Assembly: GCA_017084465.1 (NCBI GenBank) | Contig: CP070896.1 | Coordinates: 3,895,501 to 3,959,500 of the forward strand | Reading direction: 5' to 3' | Length of the DNA: 64,000 bases | Source of the DNA: Lacrimispora xylanisolvens | GTDB taxonomy: Bacteria > Bacillota > Clostridia > Lachnospirales > Lachnospiraceae | Shown here: one piece after another, positions 13,574 to 29,405 of the stretch | How the letters are laid out: each line of letters starts with the position of its first letter | Numbering within the stretch: the stretch's first letter is position 1 | Notes under the pieces: model-generated | Databases searched by the model: none | What the model saw: only the letters and a program-made list of their open reading frames with translations | What the model was told of the DNA's origin: nothing | Position numbers and translations under genes: made by a program

Positions 13574-14629
<1,056 letters not shown>

Positions 14630-14653
14630 GGGGTCAGGAGAGGAGAAAATATT

Positions 14654-14977
14654 ATGTTATTGGTGAGAGCGATTATCAGGCCGGAAAAAGCGGATTTTGT
14701 TATGAAGGAAGCATCAGAAGCAGGATTTCAGGCTGTGACAAAGATGGATGTATATGGTCGGGGCAAACAAAAGGGGATTACGGTTGGTGATGTTCACTAC
14801 GATGAAATTCCAAAAGAAATGCTGTTGTTTTTCTGCAGTGACGAAGACAAGAATGATCTGGTTAAGGTGATCATGAGAACTGCCAGAACAGGGGAAGGCA
14901 ATTACGGAGACGGACGTATCTTTGTATCTCCTGTAGAAGATGCCTACACCATCAGCACAGGAAAGCAGGGACTTTAG
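14654..14977 (+). CDS. nifI1: Nitrogen regulatory PII-like protein NifI1
   Basis: GlnB-family protein of 107 aa ([20 protein letters not shown]...; T-loop [20 protein letters not shown]-terminal [16 protein letters not shown]). Its place between nifH and nifD, followed by nifI2, is diagnostic of NifI1. In methanogens, NifI1/NifI2 complexes bind dinitrogenase and inhibit it when ammonium is available, relieved by 2-oxoglutarate; the same role is inferred here. Confidence 0.93.
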
Positions 14978-14991
14978 GAGGAACGATTGCT

Positions 14992-15376
14992 ATGAAAGAA
15001 GTAATGGCATTTATCCGGGTGAACAAAATAAACCCTACAAAGAAAGCGCTTGCAGAAGGCGGATTTCCTGCATTTACCTGCAGACCGGTATTAGGAAGAG
15101 GAAAGAAGCGGATTGATCCGGGAGCTCTTGTCTCTGGTTCTGGAAACAGGGGAGCTTCCCATGTCTCCCAAAGGAGAATATTTAACAGAATCGTTCCGCT
15201 GGATTCCAAAACGGCTGATTACGTTGATTGTAGAAGATCCCCAGGTGAAGGATGTGGTGGATATCCTGATAAAAACAAACCAGACAGGAAATCCCGGTGA
15301 CGGAAAAATATTTGTGCTTCCCATTTATGAGGCTTATACCGTCAGAAGCGGAGAAAGCACAATTGAGGCTTATTGA
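14992..15376 (+). CDS. nifI2: Nitrogen regulatory PII-like protein NifI2 (one frameshift)
   Basis: Second PII-like subunit of the nitrogenase switch-off pair ([21 protein letters not shown]-terminal [20 protein letters not shown]). An extra C at 15118-15119 breaks the frame; removal gives [20 protein letters not shown] and carries through to 15376 (~127 aa). Ribosome site TAGGAGG upstream; 14 nt after nifI1. Confidence 0.9.
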
Positions 15377-15391
15377 CAGGAGGTGAGGGAG

Positions 15392-16991
15392 ATGTCAAAG
15401 GAACGAGATTTATTACTGGATAAATATTCATCCAGAGTATTTAAAAATAGAAAAAGTCATATCACCCAGCTGGAATTCGGAGAAAATGCGGATGAAATTA
15501 CAGCAAATACCAGGGCAATACCTGGAATTATAACAGCAAGAGGCTGCTGCTATGCAGGCTGTAAAGGCGTTGTGGTAGGACCTGTTAAAGATTCTGTGGT
15601 TATCACACACGGCCCCATTGGCTGTGCCTTCTATTCCTGGGGAACCAGAAGGAATAAGGCAAAACCTTCCTATGAAGGCGAACCGAACTTTGTTCCATAT
15701 TCCTTTTGTACGGATATGAGGGCATCGGATATTGTATTTGGTGGAGAAAAGAAGCTGGAAGAGGGAATCGATGAGATCATGGAGCTGTTCCATCCCAAAT
15801 GCATTTTCATCTGCTCCACCTGCCCCATCGGTCTCATTGGTGATGACGTGCAGGCAGTGGCAAGAAGAGTGGAGGAAAAATACGGCATTACAGCCATTGG
15901 ATATTCCTGCGAAGGCTATAAGGGAGTTTCCCAGTCAGCCGGTCACCACATTGCCAACAACGGATTGATGCGTTATGTAATCGGAAAAGGAGAAGAGGCG
16001 CCAAAGGGAAAATACAGCGTCAATATCCTGGGTGAATACAACATCGGAGGTGATGGATGGGAACAGGAGCGGATCTTAAAGAAAATCGGATACGAAGTAG
16101 TTTCTGTATTTACCGGAGACGGTTCCTATGAAACCTTAAAAAATTCCCATCTGGCAGATTTAAATCTGGTCATGTGTCACCGGTCCATTAATTACATAGC
16201 GGAAATGATGAAGACAAAATATGGAGTTGACTGGCTGAAAGTGAACTTCATCGGAGTAGGGGCCACCTCAAAATCACTGCGTATGATGGCTAAATATTTT
16301 AACGATCCGGAGCTTACAAAGCGGACAGAGGAAGTGATTGCAGAGGAACTGGCAGAAATTAATGAGGATATGGAATATTACAAGTCCAAATTAAAGGGAA
16401 AAACAGCCGGAATCTTTGTAGGAGGCTCCCGTTCCCATCACTACCAGATGCTTTTAAGGGATTTTGGTATGGAAACCACCATTGCCGGTTATGAATTTGC
16501 CCACCGGGATGATTACGAAGGACGGGATGTTATACCCCAGATCAAGGCAGATGCAGATTCTAAAAACATAGAAGAAATTTCGGTGGAGAGAGCTGTTGGA
16601 TATGATGACAGATACTCTGTGGAAGAGTTAACCGGTCTGCGAAACCAGGGGGTAGAGCTGGATACCTACAATGGAATGATAAAAGATATGAAGGAAGGCT
16701 ATATGGTAGTGGACGATTACAACATGTTTGAAACCGACCAGCTGATTGAAGAGTATAAGCCAGACATTTTCTTTTCCGGAATCAAAGATAAATACGCCAT
16801 ACAGCATGGAGGAGTCGTGTCCCGCCAGATGCATTCCTATGATTACTTCCGGACCCTATGCAGGCTTTCGTGGAGCAGTAAATTTTGGAAGAGATGTAAC
16901 CATGAGCCTTTATACCAACGCCTGGTCGCTGGTAAAGCCGCCGTGGAAGACCATACCAATGTTAGAAGGAACGTTAGGAGGTGCAGGCTGA
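15392..16991 (+). CDS. nifD: Nitrogenase MoFe protein alpha chain NifD (one frameshift)
   Basis: Alpha subunit of dinitrogenase, carrying FeMo-cofactor. Likely P-cluster ligands C52, C78 and C144; cofactor ligands C262 (VMCHRS) and H481 (RQMHSYDY), by comparison with the Azotobacter enzyme. An extra T at 16847-16848 shifts the frame after HSYDY; removing it restores SGPYAGFRGAVNFGRDVTM and the stop at 16989-16991. Without correction the frame runs on into nifK and mimics a fusion. ATG 15392 lies 7 nt after AGGAGGT; corrected length ~532 aa. It is of Mo type, since no vnf/anfG delta subunit is present. Confidence 0.95.
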
Positions 16992-18364
16992 TGCTTGAAT
17001 TAACACCAAAAGAAATTATGGAAAACCGCCACATGACAATTAATCCCTGCAAAACCTGTGAGCCCGTAGGTGCTATGTTCTGCGCACTGGGTGCCGAAAA
17101 GTGTATGCCTCATTCCCATGGATCACAGGGATGCTGTTCCTATCACAGAACGGTGTTAAGCCGGCATTTTAAAGAGCCTGCCATTGCTTCCTCGAGCTCC
17201 TTTACAGAAGGTGCCTCTGTATTCGGAGGACGCAGCAATATCACCACAGCTGTGAAAAATGTGTTTGACATCTATAAACCGGATATTATGGCAATCCATA
17301 CCACCTGTCTTTCTGAAACCATTGGTGATGATGTTGGTTCCTACATTATGGATATGGAAGTGCCGGAAGGGAAAACCGTTCTTTATGCCAGTACCCCTTC
17401 CTACGAAGGCTCCCATATTCAGGGGTTCTCCAACATGATGATTGGTTTCATGCGGTATATGACAAAGAAGACCGGGACCCCCAATGGAAAAGTAGCCATC
17501 TTCCCAGGCTGGGTCAATCCCGGAGATGACAGGGAGTTAAAGAAGATTGCAGGGTTAATGGGGGCAGAATATATTTATTTTCCTGATCATGAGGGGATAC
17601 TGGATCACCCTATGGATGGAAAGAGTGAATATTTTCATGAGAATGCAGGAACCAAGGCCAAAGATATTGCGGCAATGGGAGATTGTGAAAAGCTGATCTC
17701 CATGGGAATCTACTGTTCTCTGGAACCGTCGGAGTATTTAAAAAAGGAATATAAAGTTCCTTTCTCCAATATACCAGTTCCGGTCGGCGTCAAGCTGACT
17801 GATCAGTACATATTGGAACTTCAGAAATTTACAAAGAAAGAAGTTCCGAAAGAGCTGGAAGATGAGAGGGGCAGACTGGTGGACTTAATGCTGGATTCCC
17901 ACCAGTATGTGTATAAGAAGAAAGCCGCCATTTATGGAGATCCTGATATTGTGTATGGCTTCACCGCCTTATGTCTGGAACTGGGCATGAGCCCCAAATA
18001 CATCATAACCGGTACACCAAAAGCACACTGGGAGAAAGAGATCAAAGAGCTGATGGATCAGTATGGTGTAGATGAAAGCGATTATGTGGTAAAGGCAGAT
18101 ACGGATTTGTTTTATCTCCATCAGCTGATTAAAAATGAGTCTGTAGATCTTCTTTTAGGTTCCAGCTATGGAAAGCAGATCGCAAAGGCAGAAGACATTC
18201 CTCTGGTACGTATGGGATTTCCCGTACTGGACCGTTATGGAAATCCCATACAGGCGACGGTAGGATATGCAGGTGCAATCCGGTATACGGAAAAGATCGT
18301 AGACGCCATGATGGACCGGCAGGACCGGGATGCGGCAGATGAAGATTTTGATGTAGTTATGTAA
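16991..18364 (+). CDS. nifK: Nitrogenase MoFe protein beta chain NifK
   Basis: Beta subunit of dinitrogenase, 457 aa. It begins MLELTPKEIMENRHMTINP, the short clostridial N-terminus lacking ~50 residues present in proteobacteria. Likely P-cluster ligands C23 (KTCEP), C48 (GSQGC) and the Cys of TTCLSETIGDD. Its ATG at 16991 overlaps the true nifD stop by one base (TGATG), with GGAGGT 8 nt upstream, so the two subunits are translationally coupled. Confidence 0.95.
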   Translation: MLELTPKEIMENRHMTINPCKTCEPVGAMFCALGAEKCMPHSHGSQGCCSYHRTVLSRHFKEPAIASSSSFTEGASVFGGRSNITTAVKNVFDIYKPDIMAIHTTCLSETIGDDVGSYIMDMEVPEGKTVLYASTPSYEGSHIQGFSNMMIGFMRYMTKKTGTPNGKVAIFPGWVNPGDDRELKKIAGLMGAEYIYFPDHEGILDHPMDGKSEYFHENAGTKAKDIAAMGDCEKLISMGIYCSLEPSEYLKKEYKVPFSNIPVPVGVKLTDQYILELQKFTKKEVPKELEDERGRLVDLMLDSHQYVYKKKAAIYGDPDIVYGFTALCLELGMSPKYIITGTPKAHWEKEIKELMDQYGVDESDYVVKADTDLFYLHQLIKNESVDLLLGSSYGKQIAKAEDIPLVRMGFPVLDRYGNPIQATVGYAGAIRYTEKIVDAMMDRQDRDAADEDFDVVM

Positions 18365-18384
18365 ATCAGCAGTGAAATGGAACC

Positions 18385-18407
18385 AGGGAGGGAGCCGACC
18401 CCTCCCT
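18385..18407 (+). promoter_or_regulatory. Stem-loop between nifK and nifE
   Basis: Perfect 8-bp arms AGGGAGGG (18385-18392) and CCCTCCCT (18400-18407) with a 7-nt loop, followed by ATTTCTGTTT. It could be a leaky terminator or an RNA-stability element that keeps nifHDK mRNA above the nifE-N-B part. Confidence 0.5.
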
Positions 18408-18448
18408 ATTTCTGTTTAAATTTGCGGGTCTTTGAAAGGAGTATGTTT

Positions 18449-19804
18449 ATGGAAACGGAGAACAGCAACCGGAATATATTGGACGCAAGGAAAAGTTCCA
18501 TTGTTGTAAAAGACGGGTGCAGCGGCATGGGGGGCGGAATTTCATGTGACAGCAACAGTGTATCCGGTTCCGTGTCCCAGCGGGCCTGTGTATACTGCGG
18601 AGCCAGAGTTGTTTTAAATCCCATTACCGATGCCTGGCATATTGTACATGGTCCCATCGGATGTTCCAGCTATACATGGGATATCAGGGGATCTTTAACC
18701 AGTGGGGAGGATATTTACAGAAACAGCTTTTCCACGGATTTGCAGGAAACAGATATTATATTTGGAGGAATCAGAAAGCTTGAGGCAGCAGTCGATGAGC
18801 TGATGGAGAAAGAAGACAATGTGAAGCTGATCTTTATCTATGCCACCTGTATTGTTGGTGTAATCGGAGACGATGTGGAAGCCTTGTGCAAGATGAAATC
18901 AGAGCAGTATCACATTCCAGTGATTCCGGTAAAGTCTCCCGGTTTTTCCGGGAATAAATCCACCGGCTATCGGATGGCATGTGATGCAATTATGAATGTG
19001 CTTCTGCCCCATAAAAGTGAAGAGAAGAGAACTGCCATTAACATATTAGGGGATTTTAATCTGGCAGGGGAAATGTGGATTATCAAGAATTATTTTAAGG
19101 AAATCGGCATTGATGTGATCTCAGGTTTTACCGGTGATACCTGCTATGAGGATATGATTGAAGCGCCGAAGGCTGCTTTAAATATAGTCCAGTGTGCAGG
19201 TTCCAGCACCTATCTGGCAAACCGTATGGAAGAGGAATTTGGAATTCCCTTTATCAAGGTCAGTTTTTGGAATCGAAGACACCACCAATTCCTTAATCAG
19301 GACGGCGGAAGCACTTCAAAATGAACTGGCAAGAAGAAAAGCAGTGGAATTTTGCAGGAGGAAGGCGGAAGAGCTGGATAATTTCTTAGGCCGTTACCGG
19401 AAAAACCTGGAGGGGAAAAAGGCTGCTATCTACGTAGGCGGTGGATTTAAAGCGATCTCCCTTATACGTCAGTTTCAGGCAATGGGGATGGAAACGGTGG
19501 TGGTCGGAACCCAGACAGGGAAAAAAGAAGATTATGAAGTGATTGAGAGTCTGGTGAAATCCGATACTGTAATTTTAGACGATGCCAATCCGGCAGAGTT
19601 GGAAACCTTTATGAAAGAAAAGGGAGCGGATATTCTGGTAGGAGGTGTGAAGGAAAGACCTCTTGCCTATAAGCTGGGAATTGCATTCTGTGATCACAAT
19701 CATGAGAGAAAGTTTCCTTTAGCCGGTTTTGAAGGGGGGTGGTCAATTTCACCATGGAAATCAATAAAAGCATAAACAGTCCGGTATGGGGCTATATCAG
19801 CTGA
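18449..19804 (+). CDS. nifE: FeMo-cofactor scaffold subunit NifE (two frameshifts)
   Basis: NifD paralogue; with NifN forms the scaffold on which the NifB-cofactor is matured with Mo and homocitrate. Typical sequence ACVYCGARVVLNPITDAWHI, HGPIGCSSYTWDIRGS and YATCIVGVIGDD. Break 1: extra T in T5 19264-19268 (removal gives KVSFGIEDTTNSLIRTAEAL). Break 2: the G6 run 19734-19739 is off by +1 or -2; correction restores VVNFTMEINKSINSPVWGY and a stop at 19802-19804. ATG 18449 chosen because AAGGAG is 7 nt upstream. Confidence 0.92.
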
Positions 19805-19822
19805 CAGAAAGGCGGAATGACG

Positions 19823-22456
19823 ATGAAGAGTGAAGTAAAACCTCTGGTGAATCTAAATATCAATCCCTGTAAAATGTGTATGCCCATGGGAAGTGCAACG
19901 GCATTCTACGGTCTGAAGAACTGCATGACCATCCTTCATGGTTCACAGGGGTGTGCTACCTACATCCGGCGTCATATGGCGACTCACTACAATGAACCGG
20001 TGGATATTGCTTCCTCCTCCCTGACTGAGCAGGGAACAGTCTATGGCGGCAGTGAAAATTTAAAAAAGGATTAAAAAATTTAATTGAGCTTTACCACCCT
20101 GAAATTATCGGTGTCATGACAACATGCCTGGCAGAAACCATAGGAGAGGATGTTCCGGGGATCTTGCAGTCTTTTCTGGAAGAAAATCCAGGGTATGAGG
20201 ACATTACGCTGATTCCCTGCCATTCTCCCGGATATGGTGGAAGCCAGTATGAGGGGTATTTCGCAGCTCTTTCTGCCATTGTCTCTTCCATTAAGATGGA
20301 GACAGAAAAGAATCATCTGGTAAATGTAATCACGGCACCCATAAGCCCGGCAGATACCAGATATTTAAAAAGGATGTTCTCCCTCTTTGGAATTGATGCC
20401 GTTCTCCTACCTGACTTATCCGATAATTTAGACGGAGCCCACGACCCCAGTTACAACCGCCTTCCTCATGAGGGAACGGATCTGGCACAGTTAAAGAAGA
20501 TGGGTGGAGCAAAATTTACATTAGAACTGACCGCATTTCACCATAAGAATTCTGTTGGCGAATATTTATCTGAAACATATGGAGTTCCTTACGAGCGGCT
20601 GCCCCTGCCAGTGGGATTAAGGGATACGGATGCATTTTTAAATACACTGTCCCGTATTTCCGGTAAAGAAATCCCTGATGAATTAAAGAAAGAGAGAGAG
20701 GGCGCTATTTAGATGCCATGATTGATTCTCATAAATACCATTCTTCAGGAAGAGCGGCTGTATTCGGGGAACCGGATCTGGTATACTCCACCGTGCGCAT
20801 GATGTGTGAATGCGGAGTCATGCCAGTAGTCTGTGCAGCGGGATCGGCAAGTCCGGAACTTGACGGACTGATCAGACCGGAGATTTCTGAACTTGCCGGT
20901 CTGTACCTGGTAGATGAGTATAAAATTGCAGATAAAGCGGATTTTAAGGATATTGAGGAGATGATTGTTACCTATAAGGCCAATATCCTTGCAGGCAGTT
21001 CTGACGGAAGGCGTATTGCAGAAGATTTACACCTTCCCCCTGGTTCGAAGAGGATTTCCCATACATGATCATGTAGGGGGACAGCGGCTTAAAATGCTGG
21101 GTTATGAGGGATCGGTGGAATATATGGATGAGATCGCAAATCAGCTGATCGACACGGTTGAAACTACCTTTCGGGAGACTTTATATGATACATATTATAA
21201 AGATACAGCCATTGATCAGAAAAAGGAACCACAATCTGCGGAAGAGATCATGAAGCGCAAGACAAAGGAGCACCCCTGCTATAATTGCCAGGCTCATCAG
21301 TTCGCCAGAATCCATCTTCCGGTAGCGCCTGCCTGCAACGTTCAGTGCGGCTACTGTGTAAGAAAATTTGACTGCCCCAATGAAAGCCGTCCGGGAGTCA
21401 CTTCTTCTATTCTGACGCCTGAGGAAGCACTTAACCGCTATCTGTCAGTGAAGGAGAAAATGCCCAACTTAACCGTAGTGGGGATAGCAGGACCAGGGGA
21501 AGCCCTGGAAAACTGGGAGAATGTAAGAAAGGTATTTGAACTCATAAGAGAACAGGACCCCGAAGTAACCTTCTGTCTTTCCACCAATGGACTGAAGCTT
21601 CCCCAATATGCGCTGGAACTAAAGGAACTGGGCGTTTCCCATGTAACCGTAACCATGAATGCGGTGGATCCCCATATCAGCGGACAGATGTACCAGTATA
21701 TCCGGTATATGGGCAGGGAATACACCGGTGACGCAGCAGGAGCTCTTATGGTAGCAAACCAGATTGCGGGAATCAGGCAGTTAATTGCCAATGGAATATT
21801 GGTAAAAGTTAATATTGTGACAGTGAAGGGAATCAATGACAGCCATGTGCCAGAGGTTGTAAAGACTGTCAAATCACTGGGATGCTTTATTACTAATATT
21901 ATGCAGATGATTCCGGTAAAGGGCAGCGCGCTGGAACATGTGGAGCCGGTTTCAAACAAACAGTTAAATGAGATCAGAAAGCAGTGTGAAGAGATCATGC
22001 CCCAGATGTATCACTGTCAGCACTGCCGGGCAGATGCAGTTGGAACCCTGACCGATGATAAATCCATACAGTTAAAGGGGTTTGTGGCGGAGGAAAGGCC
22101 TGTTATCGTTCCTGTTTCAAAAAACCTCCGTTTTGCAGTAGCTTCCAAAAGCGGTGTGGTAGTTGATACCCACTTTGGTCATGCAAAGGAATTTTATCTG
22201 TATGACTACCGTAACGGGGAAGTCCGGTTCGCAGGAAAACGAAATGTGGAGCAGTACTGTCAGGGGGGAAGAAGAATGCGGGGAAAAAGAGGATAAAATA
22301 GAACGGATTATAGCTGCTCTAAATGGCTGCAGCGGAGTCATTGCCATGCGTATCGGTATGGAACCAGCCAAAAAGCTGACAAAACTGGGGATTAAGCCGG
22401 TGAATACCTATGACATGATTGAAGATGCAGTAAAAAAAGCGGCGGAAGCCATGTAA
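19823..22456 (+). CDS. nifN-B: NifN-NifB fusion protein (four frameshifts)
   Basis: N-terminal half is NifN (INPCKMCMPMGSATAFYGL, GSQGCATYIRRH, MTTCLAETIGED), the partner of NifE. C-terminal half is NifB, a radical SAM enzyme building the 8Fe-9S-C NifB-cofactor, with C-N-V-Q-C-G-Y-C (CxxxCxxC) and a C-terminal NifX/NafY-like domain (FAVASKSGVVVDTHFGHA). No stop separates the halves once indels are corrected: missing A in A6 20062-20067; off-by-one or two near 20691-20702; extra C in C5 21036-21040; extra G in G6 22263-22268. Fusion of nifN and nifB is known in Clostridium pasteurianum. ATG 19823 fits the ribosome site best. Confidence 0.92.
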
Positions 22457-22469
22457 GAGGAGGAGAAAG

Positions 22470-22778
22470 ATGGTACAGCCAAAATATCATGTATTTATCT
22501 GCACAAGCTGCAGAATCAACGGGACACAAAAAGGGATGTGTTACCAGAAGGGCGCGGTTGACTTAATCCAGTCTTTTATGCAGGAGATTGAAGACAGGGA
22601 TCTATCCGGAGAGGTAGTTATAAACAATACCGGGTGCTTTGGAATCTGTGATAAAGGTCCTGTTGTTGTGGTTTATCCGGAAGGAGTCTGGTATGGCAAT
22701 GTATCAGAGGATGATGTGGAACGCATATTTGATGAGCATTTTGAAGGAGGAAATCCAGTTGGTGATTTAATGATTTAA
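22470..22778 (+). CDS. 2Fe-2S thioredoxin-like ferredoxin
   Basis: Protein of 102 aa with cysteines at 11, 14, 24, 56 and 60, the pattern of the Clostridium pasteurianum 2Fe-2S ferredoxin, which is known to interact with the MoFe protein. Sequence FICTSCRINGTQKGMC and NTGCFGICDKGPVVVVYPE. Likely an electron carrier or maturation factor for nitrogenase; its position inside the nif operon supports this. Ribosome site GAGGAGG upstream. Confidence 0.92.
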   Translation: MVQPKYHVFICTSCRINGTQKGMCYQKGAVDLIQSFMQEIEDRDLSGEVVINNTGCFGICDKGPVVVVYPEGVWYGNVSEDDVERIFDEHFEGGNPVGDLMI

Positions 22779-22826
22779 TACCTGTAATGTTGCGGAAGAA
22801 AGCACAGGAAAAAGGAGGGGCTGCTG

Positions 22827-23810
22827 TTGATTAAAATCATTGATGCCACACTGACGATGCTGGAGGAATATCCGTTAAAAAAGGAGCTGGTGTACGAATT
22901 TGCCCGGACATTAGAGAGTCTTTGCATATGGGGAGCCGTGTTAACACCAAGAGTTTATCAGCTGATGCAGGGGGATTTGCCTCAGGGAATCACCTGGTAT
23001 ATGGAACTTCCCAGTCCATCGGAAAGCGTTAAATATCCCGGGATTCATTTCTTTTTTTCCTCTTTTTGCGATGGTACAGGAAAGTTTATACGTAATATAC
23101 AAGTCAATGATGTGTCAGAGTTAAGGGGGCTGGAATGTGCCAGGCCAGATAACCGGTTAAGGCTTACGGGGCTGGACGATTTACTGATTTATGAAAGCCG
23201 TGATATTTATGAGCGGGGGATGAAGCTGTTAATCCAGGCGTCTCCCATCCTGTATCCGGAAAACTCCTGCTATTGTGCTTCTGCCATTGCGGCGGATTAT
23301 TTACAAAATCACCATAACGGAACGGTGATGACTACCTTTACCGGGATCGGAAACAAGGCGGCAACGGAACAGGTCATTCTTGCCATGAGGGTGGTGGAAC
23401 GTTATAAACCAAACAACAGCTTTGAGAAACTGGCCAACTTGCGGGATATCTTTGAAGCCATGACTAACACACAGATACTGGGTCATACCCCTGTTATTGG
23501 AAGAAAGATCTTTTATATCGAATCTGGTCTGCACGTGGATGGAGTTTTGAAAAAGCCATCTAATTATGAATCCTTTCCTCCCGAGCTTGTGGGAGCATCA
23601 AGAAAGGTGATCCTGGGAAAACATTCGGGGGGAACATCCATTCGGTATAAGCTGAAGCAGTACCAGATGGAAGACTGTTATCCGGTGGAGCATCTTTTAG
23701 AAATGGTAAAGCGTCTCAGTATTAAAAAGGGCGGGGAAGTAACTGATGAAGAGTTTTTAACAATGATGAGTGAGTGTGATAAGTATGAAAAGGCGAATCA
23801 AAATAGTTGA
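22827..23810 (+). CDS. nifV-omega: Homocitrate synthase omega subunit
   Basis: In clostridia NifV is split into two proteins that together make homocitrate, the organic ligand of FeMo-cofactor. This is the omega chain, corresponding to the C-terminal part of the HMGL-like barrel and the following domain (FTGIGNKAATEQVILAM, ESGLHVDGVLKKPSNYESFPPELVG, LGKHSGGTSIRYKL). Starts with TTG, 7 nt after AAGGAGGGG. 327 aa. Overlaps nifV-alpha by 26 bp. Confidence 0.9.
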   Translation: MIKIIDATLTMLEEYPLKKELVYEFARTLESLCIWGAVLTPRVYQLMQGDLPQGITWYMELPSPSESVKYPGIHFFFSSFCDGTGKFIRNIQVNDVSELRGLECARPDNRLRLTGLDDLLIYESRDIYERGMKLLIQASPILYPENSCYCASAIAADYLQNHHNGTVMTTFTGIGNKAATEQVILAMRVVERYKPNNSFEKLANLRDIFEAMTNTQILGHTPVIGRKIFYIESGLHVDGVLKKPSNYESFPPELVGASRKVILGKHSGGTSIRYKLKQYQMEDCYPVEHLLEMVKRLSIKKGGEVTDEEFLTMMSECDKYEKANQNS

Positions 23811-24612
23811 TACCACTCTTCGGGATGGCGAACAGTGTCCGGGTGTTGTATTCTCTCCTTCTGATAAAGTGCGTCTGGCTTTGTTTTTAGACAGCATCGG
23901 TGTTTCTGAAATCGAGGCAGGGATTTACGATGTGGGTACAGAGGGCGTCCATTATATCAGCGAAATTATGAAAAAGAAGAAACAGGCAGCTGTCTCTCTG
24001 TGGTCTAAATTAAACCCTGAAAATGTGGAAGAGTCAGCCAGACAAAAGCCGGATTTAATTCATATCGGCACTCCTGTATCTTATGCGCAGATTTATAATA
24101 AATTGGGGAAAAATAAGAAATGGATTGAGAATTCCCTTCAGGAATGTATAGAAGTCGCCAGGAACTATAACATTCCCATTACGGTAGGTCTGGAAGATGC
24201 GTCAAGGGCAGATGTGGCTTTCCTTGTATCTTTAATTCGTCTGATGCGGCAAAAGGGAGTGGAGACCATTCGCCTTGCGGATACGGTTGGGGTGCTGTTT
24301 CCCAGACGGGCAGGGGAGCTGGTGCGGGAAATAAAGCAGACAGGAATTATGATCGAGGTTCATGAACATAATGACTTTGGAATGGCAGTGGCCAATTCCA
24401 TGGTTATGGCGCTTTCCGGGGCTGATATGGTAGATGGGACACTGCTTGGAATCGGAGAGCGTGCCGGTAACTGCAACCTTTACGAATTTGTCCATAGTGC
24501 AGCCCGTAAGTTTGATTTAAATGTAAGCAGTGCAGATATTAGAAAAGGGGAAAATCTCTTAAAATCCATATTGAATGGAGGGAAGAAGAATGATTCGGAA
24601 GATCAAATTTGA
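23785..24612 (+). CDS. nifV-alpha: Homocitrate synthase alpha subunit
   Basis: Catalytic chain with the HMGL/isopropylmalate-synthase barrel: IVDTTLRDGEQCPGVVFSP near the N-terminus (catalytic Arg-Asp) and metal-binding HEHNDFGMAVANS. Condenses acetyl-CoA with 2-oxoglutarate. I chose ATG 23785; GTG codons at 23770 and 23776 are possible alternatives. Its 3' end overlaps the next gene by 23 bp. Confidence 0.92.
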   Translation: MKRRIKIVDTTLRDGEQCPGVVFSPSDKVRLALFLDSIGVSEIEAGIYDVGTEGVHYISEIMKKKKQAAVSLWSKLNPENVEESARQKPDLIHIGTPVSYAQIYNKLGKNKKWIENSLQECIEVARNYNIPITVGLEDASRADVAFLVSLIRLMRQKGVETIRLADTVGVLFPRRAGELVREIKQTGIMIEVHEHNDFGMAVANSMVMALSGADMVDGTLLGIGERAGNCNLYEFVHSAARKFDLNVSSADIRKGENLLKSILNGGKKNDSEDQI

Positions 24613-25980
24613 AGATGGCAGAAAATGGCGGAAGGAATATTAAATCTCTGCCGGGTTCTCTCCTGTGAGGGGCAGGTAATGGTAAATGGAGTTTACAGTT
24701 TTGCTGCCTCTGAGGTAGCCGGAAAGCTTGAGGGAACAGATTTGTTTTTTAACCAGGGAATCCGTCTGGCAGCCGCAGCCATTGGTGAAATCAATCAGGC
24801 AGCAGGTTGCGGAACCGGGGAGTCCGCCCGTCTGGCAGCCCAGCTTCTGGCTTACTGTGAAAGGAAATCCGCATCTGGAATCAGTCCGGTACTTCTTGCC
24901 AGGGAACTAAAAGCCGCAGCATCAGCGTTGGAAGAATTTGTTGGTAAAAATGCAATTCCCCTGCCAGACATAAACACAGATTTAATAGAAGGAATCACCA
25001 AAGACCAGAAGACTGCTCAAATGATTGTGGAAGGATCAGAGGCTGGGGAACTGGTTGTAAAAGAATCCATGTCCGGGGAAACCAGTTTTGAAATAATAAA
25101 AGGAATGCGTCTTGATGGAGGTTTGACAGTGGGAGCGGAAGGAACGGTCTGGGATTCCCTTGTTCTGATTGTAAAAACCCCCATCACTTCCTTCTCAAGC
25201 ATCTATCCCCTTCTTCAAAAGACCGGACAGCAGAATTTATTTATTCTGGCTGACGGAATAGAGGGGGAGGCCCTGACTCTTTTAAGTGCAAATGTAAAAC
25301 AGAACCGAATTCATGTAAGAGCCATGAAGGCGCCGGGAATTGGCAGGAGAAAAGAGGACCTTTTTGAGGACGCTGCGGCGTATACAGATACCATGGTTTT
25401 TGACGGTATTTATCCTTGTCAGATGGAAGAAATTTCACCGGCCATGCTGGGGCGGGTAAAAGCAGTGACAGCTGCCGGTTCTTATACAATTATAAAAGGA
25501 AATGCGGATAACAACCGGATATGCAGGCGGATTGATGGAATTAAAGAGCGGATAGGGGATCCTAAAACCAATTATTACGATAAGCAGATGCTGCGGGGCA
25601 GAATTGCAGGATTAATGGGGTGTGCGCCAGTCATCTACGCGGGTGGATATACCACGGTTCAGGCGAAGGAGGAAAAACGGAGAATTGAGTCTGCATTAGC
25701 CTATTATCAGACTGTAAAGCAGTTTGGAGTACTGAAAAAAGATGATTTAATCAATTTTCAAGCCGGATCAGAAGCAGAAAAGTTCCTGACTGAATCCATG
25801 AAGAAATGTTTTCAGAATGAGGAAATCAGTGCATACCTGATGATTCTCATGATTCAAAAGATCTGTGGGCTGATTGTCATGTGGCTGACAACCGGAGCGG
25901 TCATGGTGAGTACCGGATATGACAGAGAAGATTTAGAACTGATAAAAAGCGGAGTGGATATAGAAAGGTTAAGGAGCTGA
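24590..25980 (+). CDS. Degenerate GroEL-like (chaperonin family) protein in the nif operon (one frameshift)
   Basis: About 463 aa against ~540 for GroEL, aligning over all three domains by eye. The apical segment LFILADGIEGEALTLL ... VRAMKAPGIGRRKEDLFEDA matches GroEL LLIIAEDVEGEALATL ... VAVKAPGFGDRRKAMLEDI. NYYDKQMLRGRIAGLMG and KEEKRRIESAL match the intermediate region, and GYDREDLELIKSGV the C-terminus. ATPase residues look lost: the GDGTTT loop is GCGTGES (Asp87 to Cys), Asp398 maps to Ser, and the AGGG motif is absent. One A is missing in A4 24622-24625; correcting it joins MIRKIKFEDGRK to the rest, with start ATG 24590 behind a GGAGGG site. Cytosolic; a holdase or assembly scaffold for nitrogenase is inference. 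Confidence 0.82.
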
Positions 25981-25981
25981 T

Positions 25982-26272
25982 ATGAACATCAGAAAAGTAA
26001 AGCTGAAGCCTGGATTTGCATTAATGGAACTGGGAGGGGAATTCTGTATTTTCGATGAAAGAGACAGTCAGAATGGTTCCTTAGACGGTCTGCCATCGGT
26101 AAATGAGATCTGCATCTTCTTATGGAACAGCCTGGAGAGGGGAGCGGGGGTGGAGGAATTAATCACTCTGTTATCTGAGGAAAAAAACATTGATGAAGAA
26201 GATGCAAGGCTTGAGCTGGAGGAGTTTCTTGCAAAACTGATCCATGGTAATGTGGTTGAAATTAATGGGTAA
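25982..26272 (+). CDS. PqqD-like small protein
   Basis: A 96-aa protein with the PqqD-type layout: an N-terminal beta hairpin (GFALMELGGEFCIFDER), then NEICIFLWNSLERGAGVEELITLL and an acidic helix EEDARLELEEFLAKL. PqqD-like domains bind peptide substrates for radical SAM enzymes. No precursor peptide is visible here, and the only radical SAM protein in the operon is NifB. Starts one base after the GroEL-like gene, so it is co-translated with it. Confidence 0.75.
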   Translation: MNIRKVKLKPGFALMELGGEFCIFDERDSQNGSLDGLPSVNEICIFLWNSLERGAGVEELITLLSEEKNIDEEDARLELEEFLAKLIHGNVVEING

Positions 26273-26287
26273 AGGAGGAGCAGGCAG

Positions 26288-26900
26288 GTGGAAAAAATAG
26301 CGGTGATCAGCAAAGATCAGGAACTGGTTCCTTTTTTGTATTGCAACCTGGTGGAAATTTTTGAAAAGAAGGGGGAACAGTGGCAGGCGGTGCATACCGC
26401 TTCCTTTTCTCCCATAACAGGAAATACAATTGAAAAGCTGAGAAAAGAAACAGAAGCAATCATGTCTCTCGCGAAAGATGCAAAAGCAGTTTTATGCAGA
26501 GAGCTTTCAGGAATCCCATTTTCCGTATTCAACCAAAAAGGTTATTGCATCTTTTGTTCAGAAAAAGCGGACCAGGACACTTTAGACGGAATGATAAAGG
26601 ATATAGAAGAAAGTGATGAAAAACGAAGAAGGAAAGAAGAGATGATTCACAATGCCGGACCTGTGGAAACGCAGATACCTGGAATCTACTTTCTGGATTT
26701 GGTGCAGCTTCAAACGGAGTGCCCGGAGGTATCATCCAAAAAAGGCACTTTTGCCCTTCCTTTCCAATACTCCATTTCTCGAATTACAGCTTGTCTGTGC
26801 CCACATTCCCCCATGGCTTGAAACAGACGGTTCCTATGAAAAAAAAGTGGGTAATGGAAATGGGAAAGTACATATAACCATAACCAGAAAACAGTGTTAG
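26288..26900 (+). CDS. AnfO-like nitrogenase accessory protein (one frameshift)
   Basis: About 204 aa after correction. KIAVISKDQELVPFLYCNLVEIFEKKGEQWQAV, AVLCRELSGIPFSVFNQKGYCIFC and the C-terminal LLPFLSNTPFLELQLVCAHIPPWLE resemble the AnfO family of Fe-only nitrogenase accessory proteins, whose exact activity is unknown. Extra A in A6 26738-26743; removal joins VSSKKALLPFLSNTPF. GTG start with AAAGGAGG upstream. Unusual because the only nitrogenase here is of Mo type. Confidence 0.78.
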
Positions 26901-26914
26901 CAGGAGGTGGAAAA

Positions 26915-27902
26915 ATGCAAAATTATATGGTTTTAGACTCTGGGACACTTCAGACTCCTTATGGAATTCTGGGGGGAGTAGATTCCTTTCTCTGTCATCC
27001 AACCGGTGAGTTATCAGGAGTAACCCTGTCGGAAAAAAATATGATTGTTACCCAGGCAGGAGAATTGGTTCCGGCTTATACGGAAAACGGCAGAAGAAAA
27101 AAGAAGCCGTCTGTAGAATTTGACAAGCAGGGAATGGTGGTTAGTGTGGCGTTAGAAGAGCAGCAGGAGGTTCTTACTCCCATTGGAGAACTTCCGGTTG
27201 AACTGATTAAGTTTTACCCCACTGGAGAGCTTCACCGGATATTTATCCTGGATGGACAGATAAGCGGTTTCTGGACAGAGGAAGATGAACGGGAGCTTAA
27301 CATTTCCCTGACCTTTGATCTTGGTTTTACGGAATTTCAGGCAATGATTAATGGTCTTTGTTTTTACAAAAGCGGAGATATAAAAAGTATTACACTTTTT
27401 CCGGGGGGAAAGGACTGCCATACAGACTCCCATTGGAATGGTGGAAACCAAGGTGGGACTTTCCTTATATGAGTCGGGAAACTTAAAATCAGTAGAACCG
27501 GCAGAGCCTGTCCTGGTATCTACTCCCATTGGTAAAATAGCCGCTTACGATCCGGATCAGATCGGAATCAATGCTGACAGCAATTCTCTTTCGTTTACGG
27601 AAAGCGGAGAGATAAAAGGTCTCATCACCTGTGATTACTCCATCTATGTTCAAACTGAGGATGGAGTGATGAGAAAGTATTCTCCCCACATAAAGCCCCA
27701 TCCTCTCTATGATGAGGTACTCACTGTATCCGGGATTAAAGTGGAGTTTTTTCCTGAATCGGGAGAAGTGTTGATTGAAAATGACAGATATGACCTGGAA
27801 TCCTGCGGATTTACCATAGAACCGTTTGCACGGCCCGGAATGCACTGCAGCCCTTCTGACTGCGCAAACTGTTCCCTGTGCAACAAAGCAATGAGGGAAT
27901 AA
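26915..27902 (+). CDS. Repeat protein of unknown function with C-terminal Cys cluster (one frameshift)
   Basis: About 328 aa after removing one G from G6 27403-27408. I do not recognise a named family. It is built of beta-rich repeats alternating TP(I/Y)G units (positions near TPYGILGG, TPIGELPVE, TPIGMVETK, TPIGKIAAY) with (Y/F)xx(S/T)G(E/D/N)(L/I)K-type units (HPTGELSGV, YPTGELHRI, YKSGDIKSI, YESGNLKSV, FTESGEIKGL), somewhat like MORN or YwqK repeats. The C-terminus holds C-x5-C-x2-C-x2-C (MHCSPSDCANCSLCNKAMRE), a likely metal or Fe-S site. No signal peptide. Last gene of the nif operon; ATG 26915 behind AGGAGGT. Confidence 0.8.
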
Positions 27903-27947
27903 AGAACGAAACTGCCAAGGCTGAATCCCTTGGCAGTTTTGTTCTTT
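27901..27947. terminator. Long bidirectional terminator ending the nif operon and cstA
   Basis: Arms 27901-27920 (AAAGAACGAAACTGCCAAGG) and 27928-27947 pair over 20 bp with one mismatch/wobble; T-rich on both strands. It overlaps the last stop codon of the nif operon. Confidence 0.9.
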
Positions 27948-27953
27948 GAATGC

Positions 27954-29405
27954 CTAATCTGATTTTGCTGCAGCATACTCTGTCTCACTGGAGGAAGCAG
28001 TGGCATGCCTGCCTTTTCCAAGAACAGTCGTATAGAAAAAGGTTCCAAAACAGGCAGCTGCAAAAATTATTCCAATTGGATAAGCAATGGTGGTGGATAT
28101 CTGAAGTCCTTCCTTTGCCATCAATATGTAGGTACAGGAGACTGCGGACATAAAGGTTGCAGGAAGCACTGTAATCCAGTAAAAGCGTTTTTTACGGAAG
28201 AGATAAACGCTTGCAGTCCATAATGCGATCATAGCCAGTGTCTGGTTGCTCCAGGAGAAATACCTCCATACGATCTGTACATCAAACTGAGTCAGTACAG
28301 AGCCAACTGCCAGAAGCGGTATGGTAAGGAGCAGGCGGTTTTTCGCCGGTTTCTGGTCGAGCTTAAACCAGTCTGCCAGAGTCAGACGTGCACTCCGGTA
28401 AGCCGTATCTGCAGATGAGATGGGGCATGCAATAACTCCAATCATGGCAATAACAGCACCAACCGGTCCAAGAAGCTGAAAGCAGATTTCATAAACAACA
28501 CTGGACTGCCCATTTCCAAGAGCCGTTAAAAGACCGCCAGTTCCATCGTAAAATGCAACTCCCGCTGCAGCCCAGATGAGTGCAATCACACCTTCTGCGA
28601 CCATGGCTCCATAAAATACCTTCCGGCCGTCTGCCTCATTGGTAAGACAGCGGGCCATCAAAGGAGACTGTGTGGCATGAAATCCCGATATGGCGCCGCA
28701 GGCAACAGAGATAAACATGGTGGGCCAGATAGGTGTCCCGGCTGGGTGAAGATTGGCCAGGGTGATTTCCGGAATGTGATATCCTTTAAAAAGAATGGCT
28801 CCGCCTACACCCAGTGCCATTACTATCAGGCAGATACCAAAGAACGGATAGATTTTTCCAATCACCTTATCAATAGGGACAAAGGTGGCAATAAAATAGT
28901 AGACCAGTACAACAACAAGCCAGAATCTGGAATCCAGTACATGAGGTGTCAGCATCGCTAAGAGATTTGCTGGCCCGGTAGAAAAGGTCACCCCTACCAA
29001 TACTAGAAGAATTACTGAAAATACCCGCATGATCTGCTTCATGGCAGTGCCAAGATAGGAACCGGTCAGTTCTGATACACTGGCGCCCTTATGCCGCATG
29101 GACATCATGCCTATCATATAATCGTGTACACCACCCCCTAAAAGAGTACCGAAGGTGATCCATAAAAATACACTGGGTCCCCAGCAGGCTCCGGCAAGTG
29201 CACCAAAGATGGGCCCCAGTCCTGCAATATTTAACAGCTGGATTAAAAAAATCCGTGGGGTCCCCATGGGAACGTAGTCGTTACCATCTGTCATGGAAAG
29301 AGCTGGTGTTATTCTGTCATCAGGTCCGAAAACTTTCTCTGTGATTTTGCTGTAGAAGAAAAATCCTGCTATCAGCAGTAACAGACATAAAAAGAAACTT
29401 ATCAT
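27954..29405 (-). CDS. cstA: CstA-family carbon starvation / pyruvate transporter
   Basis: Membrane protein of 483 aa with the CstA signatures GPDDRITPALSMTDGNDYVPM, LLNIAGLGPIFGALAGACWGP and GVHDYMIGMMSMRHKGASV, and many hydrophobic helices. E. coli homologues CstA and BtsT import peptides or pyruvate. I chose ATG 29405 with AGGAGGT upstream; the upstream Met at 29441 has no such site. A LytS/LytT-type two-component system follows upstream, as BtsSR does for BtsT, so induction by external pyruvate or a similar nutrient is plausible. Confidence 0.9.
   Translation of the reverse strand: MISFFLCLLLLIAGFFFYSKITEKVFGPDDRITPALSMTDGNDYVPMGTPRIFLIQLLNIAGLGPIFGALAGACWGPSVFLWITFGTLLGGGVHDYMIGMMSMRHKGASVSELTGSYLGTAMKQIMRVFSVILLVLVGVTFSTGPANLLAMLTPHVLDSRFWLVVVLVYYFIATFVPIDKVIGKIYPFFGICLIVMALGVGGAILFKGYHIPEITLANLHPAGTPIWPTMFISVACGAISGFHATQSPLMARCLTNEADGRKVFYGAMVAEGVIALIWAAAGVAFYDGTGGLLTALGNGQSSVVYEICFQLLGPVGAVIAMIGVIACPISSADTAYRSARLTLADWFKLDQKPAKNRLLLTIPLLAVGSVLTQFDVQIVWRYFSWSNQTLAMIALWTASVYLFRKKRFYWITVLPATFMSAVSCTYILMAKEGLQISTTIAYPIGIIFAAACFGTFFYTTVLGKGRHATASSSETEYAAAKSD

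Follow-up and report, generated by a model that had tools for sequence, protein, structure and literature searches.

In a 64,000-nucleotide stretch of the genome of Lacrimispora xylanisolvens (assembly GCA_017084465.1, contig CP070896.1, positions 3,895,501 to 3,959,500), here called the window, the nif operon contains a gene for a GroEL-like protein devoid of the key ATP residues. The gene, named here nif-CPN, occupies the same place in the operon of 17 relatives of the same genus, with the key residues gone in all of them. Judging from its sequence and surroundings, nif-CPN may well be a paralogue of the group I chaperonins that has lost the nucleotide cycle and now works as an ATP-independent factor of nitrogenase assembly. 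Positions, in the text and in Table 1, are those of the window.

A chaperonin relative at 24590-25980 had been proposed in an earlier note, made by a model from the letters of the window: the coordinates are right, and the relation to GroEL is recovered by several searches. The best NCBIfam match of the open part of the window copy is to chaperonin GroEL (E 4e-42, 144 bits). Model TIGR02348 matches it with E 1.3e-41 and 143 bits, and gives 136-166 bits in all 18 genomes that carry the gene, far below its equivalog cut-off of 582 bits. Chaperonins of the PDB (best E 5.9e-34) and the PHROG GroEL model (E 3e-31) are also matched, and the homology covers approximately positions 52-412 of the GroEL profile. 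Pfam searches, in which the HMMER filters discard most weak matches, returned no family, PF00118 (Cpn60) included, for either the window protein (E up to 1) or an intact relative (E up to 10). By these matches the likeness to GroEL is far beyond chance, though Pfam and the equivalog cut-off speak against it. The possibility that the protein bears no relation to Cpn60 was rejected, as NCBIfam, PDB, PHROGs and the predicted fold concur despite the Pfam miss.

The fold was predicted by AlphaFold2 for a relative that shares 95% identity with the window protein, with 15 family members as input. The model (predicted local distance difference test, pLDDT, 85; predicted template modelling score, pTM, 0.78) has the three domains of GroEL, and its top Foldseek matches are GroEL structures (best E 1.2e-27, query-normalised template modelling score, TM, up to 0.79). 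Among the 50 matches listed, 13 chains from complexes with a GroES-type lid reach a query-normalised TM of 0.70-0.79, while the remaining 37, of which at least one likewise comes from a lidded complex, stay at 0.45-0.55. This suggests an open-like shape for nif-CPN, a single predicted state proving little. In a tree, a branch of 4.4 changes per site joins the nine nif-CPN members included, and the branch facing it measures 3.1; because of these long branches, for which warnings were issued, and of an unsettled bootstrap, the tree cannot place the origin of nif-CPN within GroEL.

The ATP site was compared in an alignment of the 18 nif-CPN members with 17 Lachnospiraceae GroELs of canonical type, which include one second copy; two divergent paralogues were kept apart. 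The D495 column was left out, since canonical GroELs themselves vary there, and so were the columns labelled V263, V264 and N265, whose numbering runs one residue late. In all 18 members the LGPKG loop lacks P33 and K34, D87 is replaced by Cys and the GGG stretch is gone. The position of T90 holds G, R or K, and that of T91 Glu (18/18). At the position of D52, S is found in 13 members and A in five; at that of D398, S in ten, Y in six and C in two. All the ATP residues named are intact in the 17 canonical sequences, and the set of ATP-binding and hydrolysis residues by which membership of GroEL is recognized is thus not found in nif-CPN. The earlier note had read in the window the GroEL signatures EGEAL, VRAMKAPGIGRRKEDLFEDA and YYDKQMLRGRIAGLMG, GCGTGES in place of GDGTTT, Ser for Asp398 and a missing AGGG motif. 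All of these readings hold, and the loss of nucleotide residues that it deduced extends to every member, none of the close relatives having its ATP residues intact. The comparison strongly suggests that nif-CPN has lost its ATPase.

The Cys at the D87 place might have acquired a role of its own. The altered nucleotide pocket could bind a metal, homocitrate or a cluster through this residue and a second invariant Cys: C22, C75 and E79 do not vary among the 16 nif-CPN members aligned, and the gene comes after two homocitrate synthase genes. The invariant Cys may equally be structural, and we regard such a ligand pocket as very improbable.

In the apical domain, the residues of the groove for GroES and client, also used to recognize a GroEL, are partly retained and partly lost. 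Positions Y203 and F204 are deleted in all 18 members (position 204 is Met in 16 of the 17 canonical sequences) and L234 is replaced by Tyr in 16; P235 and L237 are retained in 18 and L259 in 16.

At 464 amino acids (aa), against about 540 for GroEL, the protein is shorter by about 75 residues, the loss falling mostly in the C-terminal equatorial part. Two MAFFT alignments differ on its site: the one of 18 and 17 sequences puts the lost block before the last helix, an earlier one partly after it. Because they disagree, it is uncertain which portion of the last ~130 residues of GroEL is missing, and only the net loss is certain. In nine nif-CPN representatives, the last helix and the tail (416-462) show a mean pairwise identity of 75%, against 49-59% elsewhere; this conservation is the reverse of what is seen in canonical GroEL, which ends in a loose GGM tail. 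The same helix contains, in 15 of the 18 members, the 19-residue hydropathy maximum of the protein (1.74-2.11), above the maxima of the 17 canonical GroELs (1.13-1.56), which are sited elsewhere in those proteins. Such an end would suit a protein that is not a chaperone at all, and is tethered by its hydrophobic helix and conserved tail to a partner or to the membrane. We find this improbable: in the remaining three members the maximum lies outside the helix (1.43-1.60), values of 1.62 and 1.78 occur in two other GroEL paralogues, and the helix, which holds an invariant Lys, is modelled within the three-domain GroEL fold.

The ends of the protein bear also on a second possibility, that nif-CPN is a regulatory subunit which enters mixed rings with normal GroEL, making machines dedicated to nitrogenase or slowed. 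Each of the 18 genomes with nif-CPN has one canonical GroEL besides. The N-terminal segment of nif-CPN aligns with that of GroEL, and so do, in one alignment, the last helix and strand; in GroEL all of these make contacts between subunits. Most of the ~75 lost residues, by one alignment, would come from before the last helix, where GroEL makes its contacts between rings, and the end part is uncertainly aligned. In the model, moreover, confidence is low for the first five residues, and the N-terminal segment takes the form of a helix. On balance mixed rings appear unlikely.

The position of nif-CPN within the nif operon is conserved. In the 17 relatives the order is nifH, nifI1, nifI2, nifD, nifK, nifE, the nifN-nifB fusion, a ferredoxin-like gene, nifVomega, nifValpha, nif-CPN, pqqD, anfO and the gene of a 331-aa protein, as in the window; one of the contigs begins within nifE, and one cluster has no pqqD. 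The start of nif-CPN overlaps the end of nifValpha by 23 bases in the window, and by 17 or 23 in all 17 relatives. The open reading frame (ORF) of the PqqD-like protein starts in the window one base after the nif-CPN stop; the same 1-base gap is found in 15 relatives and an overlap in one, while in the relative without pqqD, anfO follows 7 bases after nif-CPN. The two junctions had led the earlier note to assign the gene to the nif operon, an assignment borne out by the constant order of overlapping or nearly abutting genes in 17/17 relatives. A scan of 22700-28200 found one promoter-like site, against 7.3 expected from shuffles, and eight terminator-like stems, against 4.8 expected; five of the stems are on the plus strand, all inside genes, and two fall inside nif-CPN. 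Given this outcome of the scan, it is from gene overlap alone that we infer cotranscription of the nif genes, nif-CPN included.

Of the 25 genomes of the genus searched (E limit 1e-50), 18 contain nif-CPN, all of them with a nif operon of the same gene order. In the seven others, one of which is only 67% complete, no nifK match exceeds 77 bits; three nif-CPN genomes run alongside score 400-411 bits. No second chaperonin was found in the seven by GroEL models; one canonical GroEL is retained in all 25 genomes. NifH exceeds its family cut-off in four of the seven, in distant nifH loci. Twelve stretches with such second nifH genes (L066-L077, 14-19.5 kb) were inspected: they hold nifH relatives 71-83% identical, in four of them a NifNB-like match (42-43% over 262 aa), and no match to nif-CPN. 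They were rejected as further nif operons, their NifD-, NifK- and NifE-like products being only 21-27% identical. They represent nitrogenase-like systems within the genus; at least one, L076, adjoins transporter genes.

Outside the genus, no close counterpart came to light. Among 299 genomes that represent as many genera of the family, matches outside the genus do not exceed 129 bits, the best being in frames of ~540 aa, and five genomes give none. In a class-wide sample of 391 genomes, the family profile has two matches at E 1e-65, both in the genus of the window. A scan of 84,980 species genomes, which requires exact short motifs and can therefore miss distant members, yielded 15 members at 53% identity or more and one match of 27% (L093), the matching frame of which is not in its ORF list. 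Matches are also present in 1278 of 72,556 plasmid records, all below 60% identity; among the 25 listed of these 1278, plasmid GroELs, many of them rhizobial, are 27.7-30.4% identical to nif-CPN. Finally, 35 nif loci of other taxa (11 from other Lachnospiraceae, 24 from other Clostridia; stretches of 13.9-19.9 kb), found by nifK in 397 genomes of the family and 391 of the class, contain neither nif-CPN nor the PqqD-like gene, so that the nif clusters of Lachnospiraceae do not in general include nif-CPN. A whole-genome GroEL search in the 11 other Lachnospiraceae showed a second GroEL in three (521-786 bits), none near the 136-166 bits of nif-CPN. As they are absent from the 35 loci, the chaperonin and the PqqD-like gene look like an insertion made early in this genus.

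In the window the frame of nif-CPN is broken at ~24620, leaving an uninterrupted ORF of 451 aa from 24625; the run of A at the break has 4 A, against 8 A in the four relatives compared. Together with the loss of key ATP residues, this would fit a decaying, functionless duplicate. The gene is intact, though, in all 17 relatives of the genus (464 aa in 16, 468 aa in one). The ratio of nonsynonymous to synonymous substitution rates (dN/dS; Nei-Gojobori, own script, pairs with dS 0.05-1) has for nif-CPN a median of 0.135 and a range of 0.075-0.165, well below 1, over 34 pairs which share genomes and are not independent. The corresponding values are 0.023 for both nifD and nifK, 0.050 for pqqD, 0.064 for the 331-aa gene and 0.177 for the anfO-like gene. 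nif-CPN is under purifying selection, constrained like an accessory factor, and its tail is invariant. In the same assembly (listed completeness of the genome 89.5%) small frame shifts relative to close relatives affect also nifH, nifI2, nifD, nifE, the nifN-nifB fusion, the anfO-like gene and the 331-aa gene (13810-27902). They are likely assembly errors and, since so many other nif genes are broken, the break in nif-CPN is most likely one as well. Decay is thus largely refuted, and a pseudogene is rejected by the 17 intact relatives and dN/dS.

The reading that we favour, a role in nitrogenase maturation, is suggested by the AnfO-like neighbour, the co-occurrence with nif (18/18 against 0/7), the fixed place in the operon, the lost ATP residues and the purifying selection. 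nif-CPN would keep a nitrogenase component that is still immature (apo-NifDK, or NifEN as the scaffold) open and receptive during cofactor delivery; it would do so passively, as an ATP-free holder or scaffold, at a late maturation step where other diazotrophs use an ATP-driven GroEL. Both the binding to nitrogenase parts and the step of action are inferred. GroEL is reportedly required for the final assembly of the MoFe protein (Ribbe and Burgess 2001). In Bradyrhizobium groEL3 and groEL4 are together required for a functional nitrogenase, as stated in an excerpt of PMC6604987. As for the neighbour, an excerpt of PMC11938142 describes in Azotobacter AnfO one domain that binds the apo-FeFe protein and another that captures FeMo-cofactor; AnfO is likened there, and in a part of PMC9310841, to NafY, which delivers FeMo-cofactor to the apo-MoFe protein. 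An intact AnfO-like relative matches the AnfO family of Pfam (E 4.8e-38, 130.9 bits, cut-off 30.3); with the NCBIfam AnfO equivalog it obtains 81.7 bits, below the cut-off of 129, hence the name AnfO-like. No match to AnfG/VnfG, a subunit of alternative nitrogenases, was found in the 25 genomes of the genus, where AnfO relatives seem to serve the molybdenum nitrogenase. A more detailed version, in which an open-state nif-CPN subunit or ring, together with an AnfO-like protein that catches the cofactor and a PqqD-like one that binds peptide, holds apo-nitrogenase for cofactor insertion, ATP-free and without cycling, is possible but decidedly more tentative.

Several points weigh against a role in nitrogenase maturation. 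The nif loci of the 11 other Lachnospiraceae all lack nif-CPN, which is therefore not essential to this kind of nitrogenase; the absence would rather indicate that it improves or adapts maturation. Its rate of evolution, measured by dN/dS, is about six times that of nifD or nifK (0.135 against 0.023). The nucleotide loop retains G86, G88 and T89 in all 18 members, so that some residual nucleotide binding is possible, and because part of the groove for client and GroES is gone, client binding cannot be assumed from homology. The co-occurrence with nif, moreover, covers a single genus. The occurrence of nif-CPN in one genus only among the taxa searched, with a nitrogenase link that consists of genomic context, would also suit a gene that merely travels in the operon and serves a purpose other than nitrogenase. 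That gene would have to be present in every nif-bearing genome of the genus and in none of the seven others, always at one place inside the operon, and we give such a coincidence a poor chance.

Several known systems share features with nif-CPN. Canonical GroEL is homologous in sequence and has the same predicted three-domain fold; compared with it, nif-CPN is shorter, has lost key ATP residues and part of the apical site for client and GroES, and carries a distinct, conserved tail. No groES is present among the neighbouring genes as listed, no model search having been aimed at it. Like nif-CPN, MmoG and its kin, in operons of soluble di-iron monooxygenases, are GroEL paralogues placed in the operon of a single metalloenzyme, a placement that gene order shows for nif-CPN in the 17 relatives and in the window. 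Chaperonin-like genes are cited, in excerpts of PMC11057499 and PMC9324122, as necessary for the activity of several such monooxygenases. MmoG differs in serving another enzyme and, within those excerpts, a loss of the ATP site is not described; the comparison is by description, not by sequence. Chlamydial GroEL2 and GroEL3 are, according to a part of PMC1892554, paralogues with differences in the regions that bind ATP and GroES. A GroEL3 model gives nif-CPN 48 bits, against 144 for general GroEL models, and thus does not make it a GroEL3. We know of no link of the chlamydial proteins with nif. Rhizobial groESL3 includes a GroEL copy co-regulated with nitrogen-fixation genes; set against nif-CPN by description, it differs in being a groESL operon, with its groES (excerpt of PMC6604987). 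In eukaryotes, BBS6, BBS10 and BBS12 are degenerate relatives of group II chaperonins which act in the assembly of a specific complex.

Another chaperonin in a nif operon comes from the same family. In genome G324 a second GroEL (L096:3590-5203) lies at the tail of a nif operon with nifValpha, anfO and the 331-aa gene. It is placed after the 331-aa gene and a 175-aa ORF, has 537 aa, is 52% identical to the main GroEL of that genome and, unlike nif-CPN, has T30, LGPKG, D52, D87, D398 and GGG intact. A chaperonin may thus have been recruited to the nif operon twice, once as nif-CPN and once as this paralogue, although the tree places neither. The 175-aa ORF belongs to no clear family, and with the second GroEL it ends the operon of G324 (L096:3590-5756). 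A divergent second GroEL was seen also in a further nif-positive genome, G295 (L133:7820-9442), on a contig other than the nif one and beside dehydrogenase-like genes; D52 and K34 are changed in it, while D87, D398 and GGG are retained.

The features of the operon in the window are collected in Table 1.

Table 1. The nif genes of the window and the marks of nif-CPN
Feature	Position	Strand	Remarks
nifH, nifI1, nifI2	13810..15376	+	nifH and nifI2 broken once each
nifD, nifK	15383..18364	+	nifD broken once, giving one false 993-aa ORF
nifE	18377..19801	+	frame broken twice; named by sequence reading and position
nifN-nifB fusion	19817..22456	+	broken four times; named by sequence reading and position, no family search
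ferredoxin-like protein	22470..22778	+	named from operon position and pattern of Cys; no family search
nifVomega (homocitrate synthase, C-terminal half)	22827..23810	+	family search
nifValpha (homocitrate synthase, N-terminal half)	23770..24612	+	family search
nif-CPN (GroEL-like protein without key ATP residues)	24590..25980	+	from ATG to end of stop codon; 464 aa in close relatives
GCGTGES replacing GroEL GDGTTT	24805..24825	+	D87 to Cys, codon TGC 24808-24810
Ser codon at GroEL Asp398 place	25690..25692	+	sequence and alignment columns
C-terminal tail GYDREDLELIKSGVDIERLRS	25915..25977	+	last helix and tail are the most conserved part of nif-CPN
PqqD-like protein	25982..26272	+	in 17/18 nif-CPN clusters, 0/35 other nif loci read
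AnfO-like protein	26288..26900	+	frame broken; Pfam AnfO E 2e-22
331-aa protein, four-Cys tail	26894..27902	+	frame broken; no Pfam or NCBIfam family

Window nifK scores 409 bits with TIGR01286, and NifK of the genus 400-411 bits in the five genomes scored, just below the curated cut-off of 427; the nifK label rests, for this reason, on the whole operon as much as on the model. PqqD is a peptide-binding family, and the PqqD-like protein beside nif-CPN might assist the radical-SAM part, NifB, or else bind a peptide tail. The AnfO-like gene occurs also in 7 of the 11 nif loci of other Lachnospiraceae. The 331-aa protein, encoded also at L080:12321-13313, ends in a C-x4-C-x2-C-x2-C tail, invariant in the 15 members aligned; its structure model is poor (pLDDT 45). 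It accompanies nif in Lachnospiraceae, being found in 11 of 397 genomes, 10 of them among the 13 with nifK; in genome G368 the gene lies far from nifK.

The earlier note had thought a non-ATPase chaperonin dedicated to nitrogenase new. Its dedication is not new in itself, as MmoG and its kin are already GroEL paralogues dedicated, in their operons, to metalloenzymes; what seems new is a chaperonin without the ATP site, and in nif. No description of an ATPase-less chaperonin in a nif operon was found in the open-access literature, most subscription papers falling outside this scope. The action of GroEL is normally inseparable from its ATP cycle: if the reading proposed here is true, nif-CPN would do its work as a chaperonin without any nucleotide, and would represent a new class of nitrogenase assembly factors. 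From a conserved set of chaperonins that lack the ATP site and belong to a single metalloenzyme operon, one could learn what regions of the fold are able to assist assembly when no energy is supplied, and nif-CPN would offer nitrogenase engineering a new accessory factor to try. With it, the old claim that MoFe protein assembly requires a chaperonin at its final step can be tested in a new context.

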